From assembly GCA_020621965.1 (NCBI GenBank), contig JAHRYV010000012.1, forward strand, positions 855 through 64,854: a stretch of 64,000 bases of DNA. Direction: 5' to 3'. Origin of the DNA: Curvibacter sp. (lineage in GTDB: Bacteria > Pseudomonadota > Gammaproteobacteria > Burkholderiales > Burkholderiaceae_C). Position numbers and translations under genes: made by a program. The notes under the pieces are model-generated. The model did not search any database. It was given only the letters and a program-made list of their open reading frames with translations, and was not told the DNA's origin. Each line of letters begins with the position of its first letter. The stretch's first letter is position 1. Positions 14,110 to 25,425 of this stretch are shown one piece after another.

Positions 14110-15240
14110 ATGACGACCCAGCCCAAAGTCGCCCTCATCACCGGCATTACCGGCCAGGATGGCTCTTATCTCGCCGAGTTCCTGCTGGAAAAAGGTTACA
14201 TCGTGCACGGCATCAAACGCCGGGCCAGCCTGTTCAACACCGCGCGGGTCGACCACCTGTACCAGGACCCGCACATCGACCACCGCAACTTCGTGCTGCA
14301 CTACGGTGACCTGACCGACACCAGCAACCTGGTGCGCATCGTGCAGCAGGTGCAGCCCGACGAGGTCTACAACCTGGGCGCCCAGAGCCACGTGGCCGTG
14401 TCATTTGAGAGCCCCGAGTACACCGCCGACGTGGACGCCATGGGCACCCTGCGCCTGCTGGAGGCCATCCGTATCCTCGGCCTGGAAAAGAAGACCCGCT
14501 TCTACCAGGCCAGCACCTCCGAGCTCTACGGCCTGGTGCAGGAAATCCCGCAGAAGGAAAGCACGCCCTTCTACCCGCGCAGCCCCTACGGCGTGGCCAA
14601 GCTTTATGCCTACTGGATCACGGTCAACTACCGCGAGGCCTACGGCATGTACGCCTGCAACGGCATCCTGTTCAACCACGAGAGCCCGCGCCGCGGCGAG
14701 ACCTTCGTCACCCGCAAGATCACGCGCGGCCTGTGCAACATCTCCCTGGGCCTGGACAAGTGCCTGTACATGGGCAATATGGACGCGTTGCGCGACTGGG
14801 GCCACGCCAAGGACTACGTGCGCATGCAGTGGATGATGCTGCAGCAGGATGCGCCCAAGGACTACGTCATCGCCACCGGCGTGCAATACAGCGTGCGCCA
14901 GTTCATCGAGAAATCCGCCGCCCAGCTGGGCCTGACCCTGCGTTTCGAGGGGCAGGGCGTGGACGAGCGCGCCGTGGTGGCGGCCATTGCGGGCGACAAG
15001 GCGCCGGCGCTCAGGGTGGGGGATGTCATCGTGCGGGTCGACCCGCACTACTTCCGCCCGGCCGAGGTCGAGACCCTGCTGGGCGACCCCAGCCTGGCCA
15101 AACAGGACCTGGGCTGGATCCCGCAGATCACCCTGGACGAGATGGTGCAGGAAATGGTGGACCACGATCTGGAACAAGCACGCCAGCATGCGTTGCTTCA
15201 GCGCCACGGCTATACCGTGCAGGTCAGCAAGGAAAAATGA
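14110..15240 (+). CDS. gmd: GDP-mannose 4,6-dehydratase
   Basis: [85 protein letters not shown]. Start refined from the track (14071) to 14110. Confidence 0.97.
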
Positions 15241-16208
15241 GCGTCATGGGCCAAGCCGAGAAGATTTACGTAGCCGGTCATCGCGGCATGGCGGGTGGCG
15301 CCATCGTGCGGACGCTGCTCGCACGGGGCGTGGATGCATCGCAGATCGTCACGCGTACCCACGCCGAGCTCGATCTGACGGACCAGCGCGCCGTGCATGA
15401 CTTCTTTGCCAACGAAAAGCCAACCCAGGTCTACCTGGCGGCGGCCAAAGTGGGCGGCATACATGCGAACAATACCTACCCGGCCGACTTCATCTACCAG
15501 AACCTGATGATCCAGGCTAACGTGGTCCACGCCGCGCACCTGCATGGCGTGCAGAAGCTGCTCTTCCTGGGTTCCAGCTGCATTTACCCCAAGCTGGCGC
15601 CGCAACCCATGGGCGAGGATGCCTTGTTCGGCGGCAAGCTGGAGCCGACCAACGAGCCCTACGCCGTGGCCAAGATTGCCGGCATCAAGCTGTGCGAGAG
15701 CTACAACCGTCAGCATGGGCGCGACTACCGCAGTGTCATGCCCACCAACCTCTACGGGCTGGGCGACAACTACCACCCGCAGAACAGCCACGTCATCCCC
15801 GCCTTGCTGCGCCGTTTCCATGAGGCGAAGGTCAAGAATGCGCCGGAGGTGGTGATCTGGGGCACTGGCACCCCGCGACGCGAGTTTCTGTTCGTGGACG
15901 ATATGGCCGCGGCCTGCGTCTTCGTGATGAACCTGGATTCACAGGTCTACGAATCGCAGGTGCAGCCGCAGAACAGTCACATCAACGTCGGCTATGGGGA
16001 CGATGTGACCATCGCCGAGCTGGCGCAGATCGTCGCCAAGGTGGTGGGGTATCGCGGCTCTGTGGTCTTCGATACGAAGATGCCGGATGGAACCCCGCGC
16101 AAGCTGATGGACTCCAGCCGCCTCAATGCCCTGGGCTGGAAACCCAGCACAGGCTTGGAGGCGGGCCTGCAGGTCTCGTATAAGGATTTCCTGGCGCGCC
16201 CGGCCTGA
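15237..16208 (+). CDS. fcl: GDP-L-fucose synthase
   Basis: 324 aa; [74 protein letters not shown] overlap with the gmd stop; start refined from 14733. Confidence 0.97.
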
Positions 16209-16218
16209 GGAACGGGCC

Positions 16219-17034
16219 TCAGCGCATGACCTGGAACGAGCACAGTTCCTGGATCGGCACTTCGATGGCCTGGTCGTTCGGGCCGAACCAGCGCTTGGGC
16301 AGCACGACCAGTGCCTTTGGGTTCAGCAGGGCGGCCGTCAGGCTGTAGGTGCTGTTGGAGCACACCAGAATGCGGGCCTGGCGCATGAGCCAGTGGGAGG
16401 AGTAGGGGTCCAGCTGGTCCAGGTAGCTGACGGACTTGAATAGTTGCCCCATTTTCTGCTTGAAGTCGGCCTCGAAGGGTGAGTCGGACAGCAGTGCCGC
16501 GTGTTCGACCAGGCCCGAGAACTTCTGGCCGAGTTGCAGGAACTCATCGTCCGAGACCAGGTGGCTCGCCACGTTGACATAGTCGCCGCGGCGCACGTGG
16601 ATGCAAAGAAAAGCCTCTCCGGCCACGGCTGGCAACTGGAGGGCCGCCACGTCACGGGGCGCAAAGCGCTCCTGGATCCGGGGGGCTGCCAGGGCGAGCA
16701 TGCCAAGCTCCATCATTTCCGGTCCGTCGCGCAGCATGTAGGACTGCTTTTTCTCGTCGTCATTCGCCGAATGGAAGCTGTCCCGTGTCAGGCCATACTG
16801 GTCCAGTTGCCAGAACCAATGGGTGGCCCGGCCTTTCTCGCCCACCTGGGACATGCGGGCTTCGGTGTCGAAGTAGCTGAGATCGGCGAGCACGGGTTCG
16901 CCCGCCTGCTTCAGCGAGAAATAGACCGCCGCCTGGATGATCTGCGTGCCCATGCCGCCGGCAAAGACCACGACCGTGGTGTCGCCTGGTTCGCGTCGGG
17001 TCTTCTTGCGTCGCAGTCGGCTGATGATGCTCAT
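16219..17034 (-). CDS. GT11-like (alpha-1,2-fucosyltransferase family) glycosyltransferase
   Basis: 271 aa; GGMGTQIIQAAVYF, FLCIHVRRGDYVNV, ILVCSNSTYSLTAALLNP. Confidence 0.8.
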   Translation of the reverse strand: MSIISRLRRKKTRREPGDTTVVVFAGGMGTQIIQAAVYFSLKQAGEPVLADLSYFDTEARMSQVGEKGRATHWFWQLDQYGLTRDSFHSANDDEKKQSYMLRDGPEMMELGMLALAAPRIQERFAPRDVAALQLPAVAGEAFLCIHVRRGDYVNVASHLVSDDEFLQLGQKFSGLVEHAALLSDSPFEADFKQKMGQLFKSVSYLDQLDPYSSHWLMRQARILVCSNSTYSLTAALLNPKALVVLPKRWFGPNDQAIEVPIQELCSFQVMR

Positions 17035-17058: not shown

Positions 17059-18234
17059 TCAGAGCGGGTACAGGCAGCCGCCGATGGTCTCGAGGTCGGT
17101 CTCGGACAGCTCGGGGTAGTTGCCGCAATAGAAGCCGTTGCTGTGCACGAAGTCCGTGCCAGGCAGATCGTACTTTTCCTTCACGTATTTCTCATAGAAG
17201 GGCTGGCGCTGCATATTGCCGGCGATCATGGGGCGGATCTCGATGCCGGCGCCGGCAAAGCGCGCCAAGTAGTGATCCCGCAGCTCCGGCGTCTTGCAGA
17301 CCACGGGGACGGCGAAGGTCGACAGCGTCGTGATGTGCTCATGGCGCAGCAGAACGAGGTCGGGGTTCTTGGTCATGATCTGCTCGAGCCGCAGGTAGTT
17401 GCGCTCGCGGCTCTGGATGTTCGCGTCCAGGAACTGCATCTGGAACTGGCCGAGGAAACCCGTGATTTCCGTGGGTCGGAGGTTGAAGCCCAGGTCGTAG
17501 AAGGTGTACTTGGCCTGGAATTCGGAGTGGATGTCGTAACGCTTGCGCCACTTGTGCTGCTGCACCGCCGTCAGGTTGCGGTCCCAACCGTTGGCGCGGA
17601 CGATGCGCAGCATTTCAGCCAGATCCTGATCATCGGTACAGACCATGCCGCCTTCGATGGTGGACATGTGGTGGGCCACGAAGAAGGAGAAGCTGGCGGC
17701 TACGCCGAAGTTGCCGGCTTTGCCTGACGGCAGCACCGTGCCCAGGGATTCGCAGTTGTCCTCGATCAGGATGATGCCGCGGCTGGCGCACAGGTCACGT
17801 ACCCGTTCGATGTCGCCGGTGAAGCCCAGCACGTTGGTCAGGAACAGGGCCTGCAGGTCCACCTGCTTCAGGCGCTCTTCCAGGTGGTGCGACATCACGT
17901 TGAGCGTGTTCACGTCGCAGTCCAGTGCCACCGGCACCATGCCCATCTGAATGATGGGCATGGTGTTGGTCGACCAGGTCAGGGCCGAGAAGCCCACGCG
18001 GTCGCCGTCCTTGAGCCGCCCAAGGTTCTTAAGCGCCTGCAGCATGGCCAGGTTGGCGCTACCGCCACTGTTGAAGAGGATGGACTCCTTGCGCCCTTGG
18101 TGCTCCGAGAACTTGCGCTCGAACTTCAGGCATTCGGCGTCCATGCTCAGGCGGTCGGCCTTCAGGATGAACTCGGCGAGCGCCTTCTTGGTCTCGTGTT
18201 CGTTCAGGAAGGCGTTTTTCATCAATGGAATCAT
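17059..18234 (-). CDS. DegT/DnrJ/EryC1 PLP enzyme, ColD-like sugar-nucleotide 3-dehydratase (His replaces catalytic Lys)
   Basis: 391 aa; IEDNCESLGT, SFSFFVAHHMSTIEGGMVCTDD (His at the Schiff-base Lys position), RANGWDRNL, GIEIRPMIAGNM, NGFYCGNYPEL. Lacks the Cys cluster present in RfbH. Confidence 0.75.
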   Translation of the reverse strand: MIPLMKNAFLNEHETKKALAEFILKADRLSMDAECLKFERKFSEHQGRKESILFNSGGSANLAMLQALKNLGRLKDGDRVGFSALTWSTNTMPIIQMGMVPVALDCDVNTLNVMSHHLEERLKQVDLQALFLTNVLGFTGDIERVRDLCASRGIILIEDNCESLGTVLPSGKAGNFGVAASFSFFVAHHMSTIEGGMVCTDDQDLAEMLRIVRANGWDRNLTAVQQHKWRKRYDIHSEFQAKYTFYDLGFNLRPTEITGFLGQFQMQFLDANIQSRERNYLRLEQIMTKNPDLVLLRHEHITTLSTFAVPVVCKTPELRDHYLARFAGAGIEIRPMIAGNMQRQPFYEKYVKEKYDLPGTDFVHSNGFYCGNYPELSETDLETIGGCLYPL

Positions 18235-18347: not shown

Positions 18348-19361
18348 CTACTTTCTAAGGAGGCTCTTTAGTTTCTTTTCCAATGGTCTTGTCACGGAGC
18401 TAACCGCTTTCTTGAGTCTGTAAACGACTCTGTAGATGGAGTCCGGAAGAAAAAGGAGTGGAAGCCACTTGATCCAAAGAGCAGGGCTGTTGTAGATCGA
18501 AATATATTTCTTCGCTACGGCCGATTTGTCCTTGATTCCCCAGAATTTGGCGAGCGGCAACGCCTCAAAGGCATACCTTCGGTCTGCTTTAATGATCGGG
18601 CGTAATATATCTTCGCGGTAGCCCATGGTCAGCAAGGCTTGGTAGAGTGCTCCCGAGGCCAATGCAATATTGATTCTCGCGTCTCCGTCGCCTCGGGTGA
18701 CTGCCTTCTCGCTACCTTCTCGAACCTTGACAACGGATTTCTTGGCGACAAATGCAGATCCCTGACGCAAGATCTTGAAAAGAGCATGCGCAAAGACTAT
18801 TTGAGATCCGAGCGCGTCAGTGAGGTCTAACCTGTTCCAGTCGTTTGTTCTGATGATGAGAGAGGCGATTGCACCCCATCTGCCTTTTGCGTGTGGAAGG
18901 AATGCGTCGCCGTCTTGACAATAGACATCGTCAGGAATCGAGATGGTCTCTACTACGTTTTTCAGAGTCTTGTCGAACTTGTCGAAGTTGACCTGAACGG
19001 CGGCGAGGTCCCTGTGCTTCTCAAGGAGGTCGATCACGTAGATCAGCGCCCCCTCGTACAAGGCATCATCGTCTCCAATTAGCCATACGTATTGACCATT
19101 TGCACTCTTGAAGAGGGCGTCCACGTTTCTGTCAAACCCTACGTTCGTGGCGTTTGCCCTGTATCGAACTAGGTTTGCGTGGGACTCGCGATATTTCTCG
19201 ATCAAGACGCCAGTTCCATCGTTCGAAGCGTTGTCGGAAACTAGGATCTCAATCTTGTCTTCAACATCTGCCGAAACCTGACGGATGATGCTGCTGAGCG
19301 TTTCGTCGATGTGCGCGGCGCCATTGAACGTTGGGATGCCAACTGTCAGCAATTTCTGCAT
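18348..19361 (-). CDS. Glycosyltransferase family 2 protein
   Basis: 337 aa; LTVGIPTFNGAAHIDETLSSI, ILVSDNASNDGTG, YVWLIGDDDAL. Lower GC than its neighbours. Confidence 0.9.
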   Translation of the reverse strand: MQKLLTVGIPTFNGAAHIDETLSSIIRQVSADVEDKIEILVSDNASNDGTGVLIEKYRESHANLVRYRANATNVGFDRNVDALFKSANGQYVWLIGDDDALYEGALIYVIDLLEKHRDLAAVQVNFDKFDKTLKNVVETISIPDDVYCQDGDAFLPHAKGRWGAIASLIIRTNDWNRLDLTDALGSQIVFAHALFKILRQGSAFVAKKSVVKVREGSEKAVTRGDGDARINIALASGALYQALLTMGYREDILRPIIKADRRYAFEALPLAKFWGIKDKSAVAKKYISIYNSPALWIKWLPLLFLPDSIYRVVYRLKKAVSSVTRPLEKKLKSLLRK

Positions 19362-19418: not shown

Positions 19419-20348
19419 TTAACGGACAATCTTGGCGGCGCGGGTGCGTTGGAATGTATTGATCCGGTCTCGGACACTCTGCAGGTCGATGCGATGTTCA
19501 CGCAGCAAATGGTCCCAGGTGCCGCAGGAGGTCGAGAACCGGTCTTCCACGCCGATGCGGCAGATGGGCAGCGGGCGGATGTCGGCCACCGCTTCAGCGA
19601 CGGCCGCGCCCAGGCCTCCCATGACTGAGTGTTCTTCCAGCGTGATGATCTGATCCACCCGGCTCGCAATATCGGACAGTTGCCGCGTGGAGAGCGGTTT
19701 GACACTGGGCACGCTCCAGACCTCGGCATCCAGGCCCTGATTGGCGATCTCCAGCGCGGTCTTGACCATCGAGCCCGTCGCCAGCATGGCGATGCGCTGC
19801 GTGCCCTTGCGGACCTGCAGCAGTTCGCCGGCCTGCATCTGAACCGGACCTGCATGTACATCACCACGGTCGCTCTTGCCCATGCGCAGGTAGACGGGTG
19901 AGGCGGCGTTGAAGGCGAATTGCATCGTGGCCGTCATCTCGAAGCGGTCGGCCGGCGACAGCACCGTCAACTCGGGGATGGCCCGCGTGCAGGCGATGTC
20001 TTCCGTGCTCTGGTGGCTGGTGCCCAGGTGGCTGTAGACCAGGCCGGCACCGTCGCCGATCAGGATCACGGGCAGGTTCTCGTAGCAGACGTCGATCTTG
20101 ATCTGTTCCAGCACCCGGATCGGCACGAAGGCCGCCAGGCCATAGACCACGGGCTTGTAGCCGGCCTTGGCCAGGCCGGCGGCCACGCCGACCATGTTCT
20201 GCTCGGCCACGCCACAGTTGATGTACTGATTCGGGCAGGCCTTGCGGAAGGGGTCGAACAGGGCATAGCCATGGTCGCCCGTGAGCAGCAGGACCTTGGG
20301 GTCGGCCACGGCAGCGGCCACCAGGGCGTCGGAGAAGGCGTTACGCAT
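19419..20348 (-). CDS. Transketolase C-terminal subunit (split transketolase)
   Basis: 309 aa; LLTGDHGYALFDPFRKACPNQYINCGVAEQNMVGVAAGLAKAGYKPVVYGLAAF with conserved AEQNM Glu. Confidence 0.93.
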   Translation of the reverse strand: MRNAFSDALVAAAVADPKVLLLTGDHGYALFDPFRKACPNQYINCGVAEQNMVGVAAGLAKAGYKPVVYGLAAFVPIRVLEQIKIDVCYENLPVILIGDGAGLVYSHLGTSHQSTEDIACTRAIPELTVLSPADRFEMTATMQFAFNAASPVYLRMGKSDRGDVHAGPVQMQAGELLQVRKGTQRIAMLATGSMVKTALEIANQGLDAEVWSVPSVKPLSTRQLSDIASRVDQIITLEEHSVMGGLGAAVAEAVADIRPLPICRIGVEDRFSTSCGTWDHLLREHRIDLQSVRDRINTFQRTRAAKIVR

Positions 20349-20352
20349 GGGA

Positions 20353-21162
20353 TCAGTTCCTTGTCAGCGTCACTTCGTGGACGGCTTTGGCATGGTTTTC
20401 CGGGGTCAGCCGCGTGTAGTGCCAGATGTTGTCGTTTTCCATGAAGGAAACACCCTTGCCTTTGACCGTCTCGGCCACGATGGCCTTGGGTCTGCCGTTG
20501 CGGCGGTTTTTCATCTCGGTGTAGGCGCGGTCGACCGCCTGTTCGTCGTGGCCGTTGATCGTCACGGCGTCAAAGCCGAAGGCCTGGAACTTGGCCTCGA
20601 TGCTGCCCAGGCCCATGACCTCGTCGGTGCTGCCCATGGCCTGGAAGCCGTTCTGGTCCACGATGACGATCAGGTTGTCGAGCTTGAAGTGGGCGGCAAA
20701 CATGGCGGCTTCCCAGATGGATCCTTCGTTCAGTTCGCCGTCGCCCACCAGGGCGTAGCAGATCTGATCCGACGGCTTGAGTTTGGCGCCCAGCGCCAGC
20801 CCGGCGGCGACCGACAGGCCGTGGCCGAGCGAGCCGGTGGTGGCTTCGACGCCCGGGACGTGGGCATCGGCCAGTCCTTTCAGGCGCGTGCCGTTCTTGA
20901 AGTAGTTGGCCAGATCGGCGTCGCTCAGCCAGCCCAGTTCGCGCAGGCAGGCGTATTGGGTCATGACGCCGTGGCCCTTGCTCAGGACCAGGTAGTCGCG
21001 GTCCGGTGCGTCCGGATTGGCGGCGTCGAGGCGCAGGTGCTTGCGGTACAGCACGGCCAGCAGCTCAACGATGGAGAAGGCACAGCCGATATGGACGGTG
21101 GAGCCGGCGTAGGCCATGTCCAGGATGGCTTTGCGGATCTGGGGGGCATTGAACTTGGTCAT
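20353..21162 (-). CDS. Transketolase N-terminal subunit (split transketolase)
   Basis: MTKFNAPQIRKAILDMAYAGSTVHIGCAFSIVELLAVLYRKHL; TPP motif LVGDGELNEGSIWEAAMFAAHFKLDNLIVIVDQN. Track start 21186; ATG at 21162 preferred. Confidence 0.93.
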   Translation of the reverse strand: MTKFNAPQIRKAILDMAYAGSTVHIGCAFSIVELLAVLYRKHLRLDAANPDAPDRDYLVLSKGHGVMTQYACLRELGWLSDADLANYFKNGTRLKGLADAHVPGVEATTGSLGHGLSVAAGLALGAKLKPSDQICYALVGDGELNEGSIWEAAMFAAHFKLDNLIVIVDQNGFQAMGSTDEVMGLGSIEAKFQAFGFDAVTINGHDEQAVDRAYTEMKNRRNGRPKAIVAETVKGKGVSFMENDNIWHYTRLTPENHAKAVHEVTLTRN

Positions 21163-22217
21163 GGTGTCATCGCAGAGCGACTCCATTGCAGCGTCTTTTG
21201 GAGGGCGAGGGGCAGCGGGGTGAGCTCCCGCAGATCGAGCGATTGTCGCGCCTTGCGGGTGTCCGGTACATAACGCGGCGGCAGGGCCGTCGTGGAGGCG
21301 GGTGCCTTGATCTCGACCGGTGCGGGGCTGCCGGCGGCCAGCACGACCTGTGCGGCCAGCTCCTGGATGGACACGGCCTGTTCCGAGCCGACGTTGTAGG
21401 CCTGCCCGGACAGCCCCGACTCCAGCAGGCGCAGCAGCCAGACACTCAGATCGGCCATGTAGAGGTAGGAGCGCACGGGGCGGCCGTCACCCTGGATGAC
21501 GATCGGGGCCTGCGCGAGGGCGTCGCGGATGAAGTTGCCGGCGGCAAAGGGGCCATCGAGCGGAATGCCGGGGCCCACGAGGGCAAAGATGCGGGCCATC
21601 GTGGCCTCGAAGCCGGCTTCCTGGCCCTGGGCGGCATAGGCCGCGGTGAGCCATTCGGCGGCGCGCTTGCCGTTGCCGTAGGCGGCGGCGGGCTGCAGCG
21701 GATCCGGTGCGCCGGGGTAGGTCTCCGGCACATGTGTCAGCTCGGGCGGCTGCGGGCCGTATACGGCGCCGCTGGAGGTCAGCAAGAAGCGGCTCACGCC
21801 CTGGGCGCGTGCGACGTCCAGCACCCGGCGCGTACCCGTGACGATGGAGTCGAAGGTGCGCAGCGCGTCGCCGGTCTTGCCGGGATCGGCGACATCGGTG
21901 GCCGCATGGATGCAGAGGTCCAGCTGGCCCGCGGGCGGCGCAAAGTTCGTGATGTCACCACCGAGCAGGCGGATGTCGGCGCGTGCGAAGACCTGGGGGT
22001 GGGCGCGTTGCGCGCGCCCGGGGTCGCGGCTGAGGGCGACGATCTCGATGCGGCTGTCCAGCGTGTCGTTGGCGCGCTGGATGGCCTGGATCAGCCAGTT
22101 GCCGATGAAGCCCGTGCCACCGGTGATGAACAGGCGCGCGCCACGGAAGCGCGACCAGAACCCTGGTGTCAGAGACAGTACCAGGTCCAGGTCGTCGTGG
22201 GGCAGTGGGTGACCCAT
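21159..22217 (-). CDS. NAD(P)-dependent epimerase/dehydratase (extended SDR), sugar-nucleotide modifying
   Basis: 352 aa; LFITGGTGFIGNWL, LLTSSGAVYGPQP, YGNGKRAAE, YNVGSEQAVSIQELA. Confidence 0.88.
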   Translation of the reverse strand: MGHPLPHDDLDLVLSLTPGFWSRFRGARLFITGGTGFIGNWLIQAIQRANDTLDSRIEIVALSRDPGRAQRAHPQVFARADIRLLGGDITNFAPPAGQLDLCIHAATDVADPGKTGDALRTFDSIVTGTRRVLDVARAQGVSRFLLTSSGAVYGPQPPELTHVPETYPGAPDPLQPAAAYGNGKRAAEWLTAAYAAQGQEAGFEATMARIFALVGPGIPLDGPFAAGNFIRDALAQAPIVIQGDGRPVRSYLYMADLSVWLLRLLESGLSGQAYNVGSEQAVSIQELAAQVVLAAGSPAPVEIKAPASTTALPPRYVPDTRKARQSLDLRELTPLPLALQKTLQWSRSAMTP

Positions 22218-22224
22218 GGATGCG

Positions 22225-23547
22225 TCAGAAGTTCACGCCCAGGTAGGTCTCGATCTTGCGCGCCGCAAAGTCCATCATCTCCCGGGTGAGCGAAGGCTGC
22301 ACGCCGATCCAGAAGGTGTTGTTCATGATGTTGTCGGTGTTGGTCAGCTCGCCGCTGATGCGGTAGCGCGCGCCGATCATGTAGGGCTGGCGCACCAGGT
22401 TGCCGGCAAACAGCAGGCGGGTGCCGACCTTGTTCTGGTCCAGGTAGGTCAGCAGGTCCAGGCGGGTGACCGGGCAGTTTTCCTTCAGGGTGATGGGGAA
22501 ACCGAACCAGGACGGATCCGAGTGCTCGGTGGCCTGGGGCAGCTGGAGGAATTCCTCGCAGTCCTTGAGGCGCTCCTTCAGGAAGGCGAAGTTGTCCTTG
22601 CGTGCCTGGATGAAGGCGGGGGCCTTGTCCAGCTGCGCCACACCGCAGGCGGCCTGCATGTCGGTGATCTTGAGGTTGTAGCCCAGGTGGCTGTAGGTGT
22701 ACTTGTGGTCGTAGCCTTCGGGCAGGTCACCCAGCTTCCAGCCGAAGCGCTTGCCGCAGGTGTTGTCCTTGCCGGGCGGGCAGTAGCAGTCGCGGCCCCA
22801 GTCGCGGAAGCTCTCGGCGATGGTCTTCAGTTCGTCATGGTTGGTGAAGACGGCGCCGCCTTCGCCCATGGTGATGTGGTGCGCCGGGTAGAAGCTCAGG
22901 GTGGCGATGTCGCCGAAGGTGCCCACCATCTGGCCGCGGTAGGTGCTGCCCAGGGCGTCGCAGCAGTCTTCCACCAGCCACAAATTGTGCTTCTTGCACA
23001 GGGCCGTCACCACGTCCAGGTTGAAGGGGTTGCCCAGGCTGTGCGCCAGCATGATGGCCTTGGTCTTGGGGCCGATGGCGGCTTCGATCTTGCTGGCGTC
23101 GATGTTGTGGGTCAGTCGGTCCACGTCGACGAACACCGGCACGGCGCCGAACTGGAGGATCGGGTTCACCGTGGTGGGGAAACCGGCGGCCACGCCGATG
23201 ACTTCGTCACCCTGCTTGATGGCGCGGTCACCCAGCTTGGGCGAGGTCAGCGTGCTGAAGGCGACCAGATTGGCTGAGGAGCCGGAGTTGACGGTGATGA
23301 GATGCTTGACGCCGATGAAGGCGGCGAGCTTTTTCTCGAACTCGGTGTTGAAGCGGCCCGTGGTCAGCCAGCCGTCCAGGGAGGCCTGCACCATGCTCTT
23401 GAGTTCGGCGGCATCGAGCAGCTTGCCGGAGGGCGGAACGGCGGTGGCACCGGGCAGGAAGGGTTGCGGCGCGAGCGCAATGGCCGCGTATTCGTCGACG
23501 AGGGCGGCGATCTGTGCGCGCAGGGCGAGGGTCTTGGCGTTTTCCAT
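22225..23547 (-). CDS. rfbH: CDP-6-deoxy-L-threo-D-glycero-4-hexulose-3-dehydrase (RfbH/E1)
   Basis: 440 aa; [18 protein letters not shown] (His for Lys), [43 protein letters not shown] with Fe-S Cys cluster. Confidence 0.95.
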
Positions 23548-23566
23548 AAGAGATCCGAAAGGCGGT

Positions 23567-24691
23567 TTAAGCCGAAGCAGGCGCGCCGGCGCGCGCCTGG
23601 TAGGTGTTGATCTGCGCCAGCGTCAGGGCACGCAGGTCGTCGCCGCGCTGCAGGCCGCGTGCCCAGTCGACCGTCAGGCCCAGGGCCTGCTGGAGGTTCA
23701 ACTGCGGGTGCCAGTCGAGGCGGTGTGCGGCTTTCGAGATGTCGAGCTTGAGGAAGTTGGCCTCGTGCGGGTGCTCGCCGGCGTCGATGCGCCAGGAGGC
23801 GCCTTCGCCCCAGAGCGCGGCCAGTTGGCGCACGATCCACTCCACCGGCTGGGTGTCGTCGCTGCGGGGGCCGAAATTGAAGGCCTCGGCAAAGACGGGG
23901 CCCTGCGTATGGAGGCGCTCGGCCAGCGTCAGGTAGCCGCGCAGCGGCTCCAGCACGTGCTGCCAGGGGCGGATGGCGCGCGGGCTGCGGATGACCACCG
24001 GCTTGCCTTGGGCGTAGGCGGTGAGGATGTCGGGGATCAGGCGGTCCGCCGCCCAGTCGCCGCCGCCGATCACATTGCCGGCCCGCGCAGTGGCCAGGGC
24101 CACGCCGTGCTGCGCGTGCTTCTCGGGGTTGAAGAACGAATTCCGGTAGGCCGAACTCACCAGCTCGGCGCAGCCCTTGCTGTTGCTGTAGGGGTCGTAG
24201 CCACCCATGGGCTCGTTCTCGCGATAGGCCCAGACCCATTCCTTGTTTTCGTAGCACTTGTCGGTGGTCACGTTGACCACGGCGCGCACGGACGGGCACT
24301 GGCGCACGGCTTCGAGCAGGTGGACGGTGCCCATGACGTTGGTGGAGTAGGTCTCCACCGGATCCACGTAGGAGCGGCGCACCAGCGGCTGGGCCGCCAT
24401 GTGGAGGACGATCTCCGGTGCGGCCTCGCGCATGGCGGTAGCCAGCGTGGCGGCGTCGCGGATGTCGCCGATGATGGACACCATGCCCTGGGCCACCCGG
24501 GCCGTCTCGAACAGGCTGGGCGTGGTCGGCGCCGGCAGGGCATACCCCGTGACCTGCGCGCCGAGCTGCTGCAGCCACAGGCTGAGCCAGCCGCCCTTGA
24601 AGCCGGTGTGGCCGGTCAGGAAGACGCGTTTGCCTTGCCAGAATGCCGGATTCACGGCCAGACCTTCCACGGCGCCTCGCCGCTTTGCCAC
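23567..24691 (-). CDS. rfbG: CDP-glucose 4,6-dehydratase
   Basis: 374 aa; [77 protein letters not shown]. Start may be internal near 24655. Confidence 0.96.
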
Positions 24692-25425
24692 AGTTCTTCC
24701 AGATGCGTCTTGTCGCGCAGGGTGTCCATGGGCTGCCAGAAGCCGTGGTGCTGATACGCGGCGAGCTGGCCTTGCTCGGCCAGGGTTTCCAGCGGCGCGC
24801 GCTCCCAGATGCAGCTGTCGCCATCGACGAGGTCGATCACGGAGGGCGACAGCACGAAGAAGCCGCCGTTGATCATGCCGCCGTCGCCCTTGGGTTTTTC
24901 CTTGAAGCTCTGCACCTTGTGGCCCGCCATGTCCAGGGCGCCAAAGCGGCCGGGGGGGTAAGTGGCGGTCAGCGTGGCCTTGACTTTCTGCGCCTTGTGG
25001 AAGGCAAGCAGTTGGGTGATGTCGACGTCGCTCACGCCGTCGCCATAGGTGAAGCAGAAGGCCTCTTCGCCCTGCAGATAGGGCGCCACACGCTTGAGGC
25101 GGCCGCCGGTCATGGTGTTGTCACCCGTGTCGATGAGGGTCACCTTCCAGGGCTCGGCACTCTGCTGGTGCACCTGCATGCTGTTGTTGCTCATGTCGAA
25201 GGTCACGTCCGACATGTGCAGGAAGTAGTTGGCGAAGTATTCCTTGATCAGGTAGCCCTTGTAGCCGCAGCAGATGATGAAGTCGTTGATCCCGTGGTGG
25301 GAGTAGATCTTCATGATGTGCCAGAGGATGGGCTTGCCGCCGATTTCGATCATCGGCTTGGGCTTGAGATGGGTTTCCTCGGAGATTCGGGTGCCGAGGC
25401 CGCCGGCCAGGATGACTGCTTTCAT
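24652..25425 (-). CDS. rfbF: Glucose-1-phosphate cytidylyltransferase
   Basis: 257 aa; [64 protein letters not shown]. Confidence 0.97.

Follow-up and report, generated by a model that had tools for sequence, protein, structure and literature searches.

The gene at positions 17059 to 18234 (minus strand) of the window, a stretch of 64,000 nucleotides from Curvibacter sp., is best explained as encoding a ColD-type GDP-4-keto-6-deoxy-D-mannose 3-dehydratase that would feed GDP-L-colitose to a surface polysaccharide. This overall reading is held with good confidence. The protein is here called X, and the features of the window that concern it are the following.

14110 to 15240, plus strand: gmd, GDP-mannose 4,6-dehydratase, maker of the proposed substrate of X (TIGR01472, 581 bits, cut-off 415)
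15237 to 16208, plus strand: fcl, GDP-L-fucose synthase, a true Fcl (NF047922, 518 bits, cut-off 500; reductase tree; search of its own genome)
16219 to 17034, minus strand: divergent GT11-family transferase, a candidate colitosyl- or fucosyltransferase (PF01531, 25.8 bits, cut-off 23.9)
17059 to 18234, minus strand: X, predicted ColD-type PLP/PMP-dependent GDP-4-keto-6-deoxymannose 3-dehydratase, 391 aa (profiles, PDB search, tree, AlphaFold2/Foldseek)
17647 to 17688, minus strand: active-site motif of X, SFFVAHHMSTIEGG, residues 183-196
19419 to 22217, minus strand: split transketolase pair (309 and 277 aa) and an SDR, directly after rfbFGH (conserved in genomes G023 and G054)
22225 to 23547, minus strand: RfbH, E1-type [2Fe-2S] 3-dehydratase of a separate CDP branch, outside the X pathway (NF011936, 750 bits; cysteines kept)

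Active site, fold and relationships of X

The open reading frame of X is intact and without interruption. The protein matches the Pfam family DegT_DnrJ_EryC1 (E=7e-57), and a sequence search of the PDB placed ColD (1.9e-52) ahead of E1 (2.5e-38) and perosamine synthase (2.5e-26). A pair of histidines in the active-site motif is retained in 77 of 77 scored relatives, a conservation that is partly due to selection, as SFFVAHHM was one of the six patterns with which relatives were searched. Judged from the Pfam and ColD matches and from this count, chance is ruled out as the source of the similarity. No NCBIfam model exceeded its cut-off for X; the best was that of RfbH (NF011936), with 214 bits against a cut-off of 423.

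In an alignment of 57 proteins, the first histidine of SFFVAHHMSTIEGG (His188, codon 17671-17673) occupies the column of the Schiff-base lysine of all 11 aminotransferases and replaces it. PDB alignments place it opposite H188 of ColD, the residue altered in the H188N and H188K entries. At three of the columns with [2Fe-2S] cysteines (C254, C256 and C264 of the window RfbH), X carries R, L and W, whereas C, C and C are found in every RfbH row. A preliminary description of this DNA, made from the sequence alone, had reported both the loss of the lysine and the lack of Fe-S cysteines in contrast to the RfbH of the window, and both observations were confirmed by the alignment, in which the check for a lysine returned histidine. 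Assignment of X to the RfbH/E1 type was rejected on the absent cysteine motif and on the NF011936 score.

An AlphaFold2 model of X, for which the alignment consisted of 37 window and locus proteins, reached a pLDDT of 93.6 and a pTM of 0.91. ColD entries took all of its top ten Foldseek places (TM 0.86-0.88), with E1 next and perosamine synthase further down; the structural comparison with ColD and E1 that had been proposed was thus decided for ColD. The maximum-likelihood tree groups X with its close relatives in a clade that is sister to ColD and not nested in the ColD clade. The node that joins the X clade, the enzymes of loci L002 and L003 and ColD is supported at 99/96 against RfbH. Rows with histidine and rows with lysine are split at 100/100, with all lysine aminotransferases outermost and RfbH/E1 outside the group of X and ColD. 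Among 113 columns conserved within each of the three groups (X, ColD and RfbH), all three agree at 49. X and ColD alone agree at 21, ColD and RfbH alone at 13, and X and RfbH alone at 8. Ser187 and Phe240 of ColD are Ala (A187) and Tyr (Y243) in X, the same as in RfbH. The earlier suggestion of a ColD-type 3-dehydratase, not an aminotransferase, is borne out by the tree and by Foldseek, which keep X apart from perosamine synthetases and other aminotransferases, and X is almost certainly an enzyme of this type.

Other histidine-bearing enzymes of the family were also observed. ColD-like members are encoded at L002:1477-2646 (-), L003:1480-2649 (-) and L104:4965-6140 (+), all outside the X clade in the tree. 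Those of L002 and L104 adjoin TPP enzymes; a sugar-phosphate nucleotidyltransferase-like gene is present in L002 and L003, and a GmhA-like gene in L002, suggesting a heptose or branched-sugar pathway for these three loci. A DegT-family protein at L048:15691-16932 (+) likewise has histidine at the lysine site (SFYGSHIINGAGG); it is a long-branch row, weakly placed, that belongs to none of the clades of RfbH, ColD and X.

Gene context, substrate and the CDP branch

In 84,980 species genomes that were scanned, 80 X loci (59-82% identical) were found, distributed among Bacteroidota, Elusimicrobiota, Lentisphaerota, Spirochaetota, Patescibacteria and other phyla. According to tblastn positions, an Fcl-like (GDP-fucose-synthase-like) reductase directly adjoins X in 66 of the 80. 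The gmd gene lies within the locus in 28, contiguous gmd-reductase-X operons occur in ten, and a GT11 gene stands immediately downstream of X in 22. In a relative on a Streptomyces plasmid (49.5% identical), the order is gmd-X-fcl. A search for gmd in ten genomes had a match in each, above the cut-off in nine and below it in one X genome; where the X locus itself lacked gmd, the gene lay in another part of the genome. Two of the ten (G023 and G054) do not contain X and served as the comparison set. Since gmd is found in these X-less relatives too, and fcl also in G054, the presence of gmd and fcl alone is uninformative on X. More can be read from the partner genes: in the reductase tree, the elusimicrobial partners of X group with E. 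coli ColC as true ColC orthologues, showing that members of the X clade work beside true ColC, and most of the remaining partners make up an Fcl-like clade of their own. The operons, the ColC partners in Elusimicrobia and the gmd genes of the X genomes searched make it highly probable that X acts on GDP-4-keto-6-deoxymannose, the Gmd product, as had been predicted. A manC-type gene is also present in the X-bearing genome.

In the window, gmd and fcl on the plus strand converge on X and GT11 on the minus strand. X had been described as lying beside gmd and fcl, and it does, with fcl ending at 16208 on the opposite strand and one gene, the GT11 gene directly downstream of X, between them. The nearest relative of X belongs to a nearly syntenic locus of a gammaproteobacterial MAG (L014:366-13338), which contains GT2b, GT10, rfbFGH, a YerE-like gene, an SDR, an Fcl-like gene, X, GT11 and GTb. 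GT2b, GT10, rfbFGH, X, GT11 and GTb are common to the window, and the YerE-like TPP enzyme stands where the window has the transketolase pair. The GT11 gene directly downstream of X in L014 is 61% identical to that of the window, which also has weak similarity to the GT11 of E. coli O55. The most compositionally foreign gene here is a GT2 gene at 18348-19361 (-), with a GC content of 50% in a cluster of about 61-71%.

X, this GT2 gene, tktC, tktN and the SDR form one run on one strand, and ColD-like His enzymes adjoin TPP enzymes in L104 and L002. The product of X, GDP-4-keto-3,6-dideoxymannose, could accordingly be passed to the split transketolase pair and the SDR to give a branched GDP-sugar and not colitose. 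Such a fate is unlikely: in G023 and G054, which have no X, the pair comes after rfbFGH, it occurs in only 3 of the 80 X loci against 66 with an Fcl-like reductase, and the L002, L003 and L104 enzymes do not belong to the X clade. The link of X to the transketolase pair is regarded as secondary.

The rfbFGH genes occupy 22225-25425 (-), and no E3-type reductase gene (rfbI) is evident alongside them. In G023, a genome of the same genus, the order GT2b-GT10-rfbFGH-SDR-tktN-tktC is found together with a gmd match and without X; in G054, of the same family, fcl, gmd and rfbFGH-tktN-tktC are present, again without X. The CDP branch is thus common to members of the family and independent of X. Its transketolase part possibly leads from a CDP-3,6-dideoxyhexose route to a sugar with a two-carbon branch at C4; a review assigns transketolases of this kind chiefly to secondary metabolism and the YerE-like enzymes to LPS (PMC12247030). 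Of the parallel GDP and CDP routes in the preliminary description, the co-occurrence stands for the window and for about six relatives (6 of the 80 X loci have two or more CDP-branch genes), but the two are independent modules.

A role for X within the rfb branch, as a second, Fe-S-free dehydratase for CDP-4-keto-6-deoxyglucose, would agree with its position in the same gene run as rfbFGH and with their co-occurrence in these relatives. It is very improbable and was rejected on the gene context and the complete RfbH already present in the window; most X loci have no CDP genes, and the tree places X with ColD. The position in the ColD group and the sequence alone do not, however, fix the substrate, since a GDP-heptose is the substrate of C. 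jejuni enzymes that are 62-67% identical to ColD (PMC10440746). With this precedent, GDP-4-keto-6-deoxy-heptose may be considered for X, with as little likelihood as the CDP substrate: an HddC search of the X-bearing genome gave nothing over the cut-off, and gmhA or convincing hddC relatives were found in L002/L003 only and not in the X loci. Least probable of all is a perosamine-synthase-like aminotransferase, a candidate that was rejected, as the product names of annotated relatives (DegT/DnrJ/EryC1/StrS aminotransferase, a name given to E. coli ColD likewise) are contradicted by the missing lysine in the alignment and by the clean His/Lys split in the tree.

The favoured enzyme, a ColD-type dehydratase for the Gmd product, was probably acquired by transfer, because none of the 25 further genomes of the genus contains X. 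Its GC content of 61%, against 68% in flanking housekeeping genes, is weak evidence of transfer since most of the cluster has a similar value.

The proposed pathway and its reductase step

In ColD, glutamate converts the cofactor to PMP, which forms a Schiff base with the C4 ketone; after removal of the C4' proton by His and loss of the C3 hydroxyl, a 4-keto-3,6-dideoxy sugar and ammonia arise through hydrolysis and tautomerisation (PMC8987622). X retains the features required by this mechanism, as far as tested. By analogy, glutamate would turn its bound PLP into PMP, the PMP would condense with the Gmd product at its C4 keto group to give a Schiff base, and His188 would abstract the C4' proton of the cofactor as the C3 hydroxyl departs. 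Hydrolysis would then release GDP-4-keto-3,6-dideoxy-D-mannose and ammonia, with no need of an Fe-S cluster or a reductase. Epimerisation and reduction would next turn this product into GDP-L-colitose, a task that falls in most relatives to a dedicated partner, ColC or ColC-like, and here most likely to the single true Fcl, and the GT11 enzyme next to X may transfer colitose onto the surface polysaccharide.

The gene context makes a GDP-colitose-type branch likely, as the preliminary description had supposed; that ColC is missing from the assembly had escaped it, and a single Fcl is proposed here in its place. The window Fcl is 69% identical to E. coli Fcl and groups with it, apart from ColC and from the main X-linked clade. 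Like ColC, it keeps the catalytic Ser, Cys, Tyr, Lys and His positions of Fcl. A search of the assembly, which is 86% complete, found no ColC, and fcl was the single gene of the Fcl/ColC type; the reductase step would therefore fall to Fcl. In L042 the layout of the window is repeated, with X-GT11 running towards fcl-gmd and a single true Fcl in the genome, which suggests that Fcl probably makes both GDP-fucose and GDP-colitose. The single-Fcl arrangement possibly extends to L045 and L075, whose genomes have one high-scoring Fcl each. Both a high-scoring Fcl and an X-linked reductase are present in three other genomes (G101, G105 and G106, with loci L014, L015 and L019), and this second reductase fits a dedicated ColC-like role. 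Instead of double duty by Fcl, the portion of the genome that the assembly lacks may encode a ColC.

Colitose is moderately favoured as the end sugar of the pathway in the source organism. A further proposal, made tentatively and falling a little short of probable, is that one GDP-fucose synthase serves two pathways: X would compete for the Gmd product, Fcl would make GDP-fucose as well as GDP-colitose, and a fucosylated surface polysaccharide could come to bear colitose through the acquisition of X alone. The question raised is whether the horizontal gain of a single gene suffices to extend a GDP-fucose pathway to GDP-colitose.

The X clade is a large sister clade of ColD spanning many phyla, unnamed by curated models and annotated as aminotransferases, and no assayed member was found. 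It also suggests a wider distribution of colitose-type sugars than is known from the few bacteria described to contain them.

Comparison with known systems

GDP-perosamine synthase (PDB 3bn1, 3dr4) shares with X the family and a Gmd-derived substrate; it is an aminotransferase with an active-site lysine and a much weaker match. RfbH/E1, the CDP-6-deoxy-L-threo-D-glycero-4-hexulose-3-dehydrase (PDB 3bcx), has the same histidine for the Schiff-base lysine and the same 3-dehydratase logic, but it carries [2Fe-2S] cysteines and requires a reductase, whereas X has no such cysteines and lies outside its clade. The GDP-heptose C3-dehydratases of C. jejuni HS:5/HS:11 (PMC10440746) resemble X in the use of PLP and glutamate, in belonging to the ColD group and in their GDP-linked substrate. 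They differ in the heptose and in the accompanying hddA/hddC/gmhA genes, which X loci do not contain, and they are far closer to ColD than X, which is about 29% identical to the E. coli enzyme.

The closest known counterpart is ColD/WbdK of E. coli O55 (PDB 2gms, 2r0t, 3b8x), which has the same fold, His188 at the lysine site, no Fe-S cysteines, partners of the gmd/ColC type and a GT11 gene in its cluster. In E. coli O55, ColC and ColD stand side by side, and the GT11 gene, annotated as an alpha-1,2-fucosyltransferase, is identified in the current analysis as WbgN, a GT11 alpha1,2-colitosyltransferase that also accepts GDP-fucose (PMC12723683, PMC11987014). X differs from ColD in the low identity, in its distinct sister clade and in A187/Y243 against S187/F240. 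The textbook colitose pathway includes ColC, whereas the X-bearing assembly has only one true Fcl. X is a fresh member of the known ColD kind and no new kind of system; its interest lies in the unnamed sister clade and in the possible sharing of Fcl.
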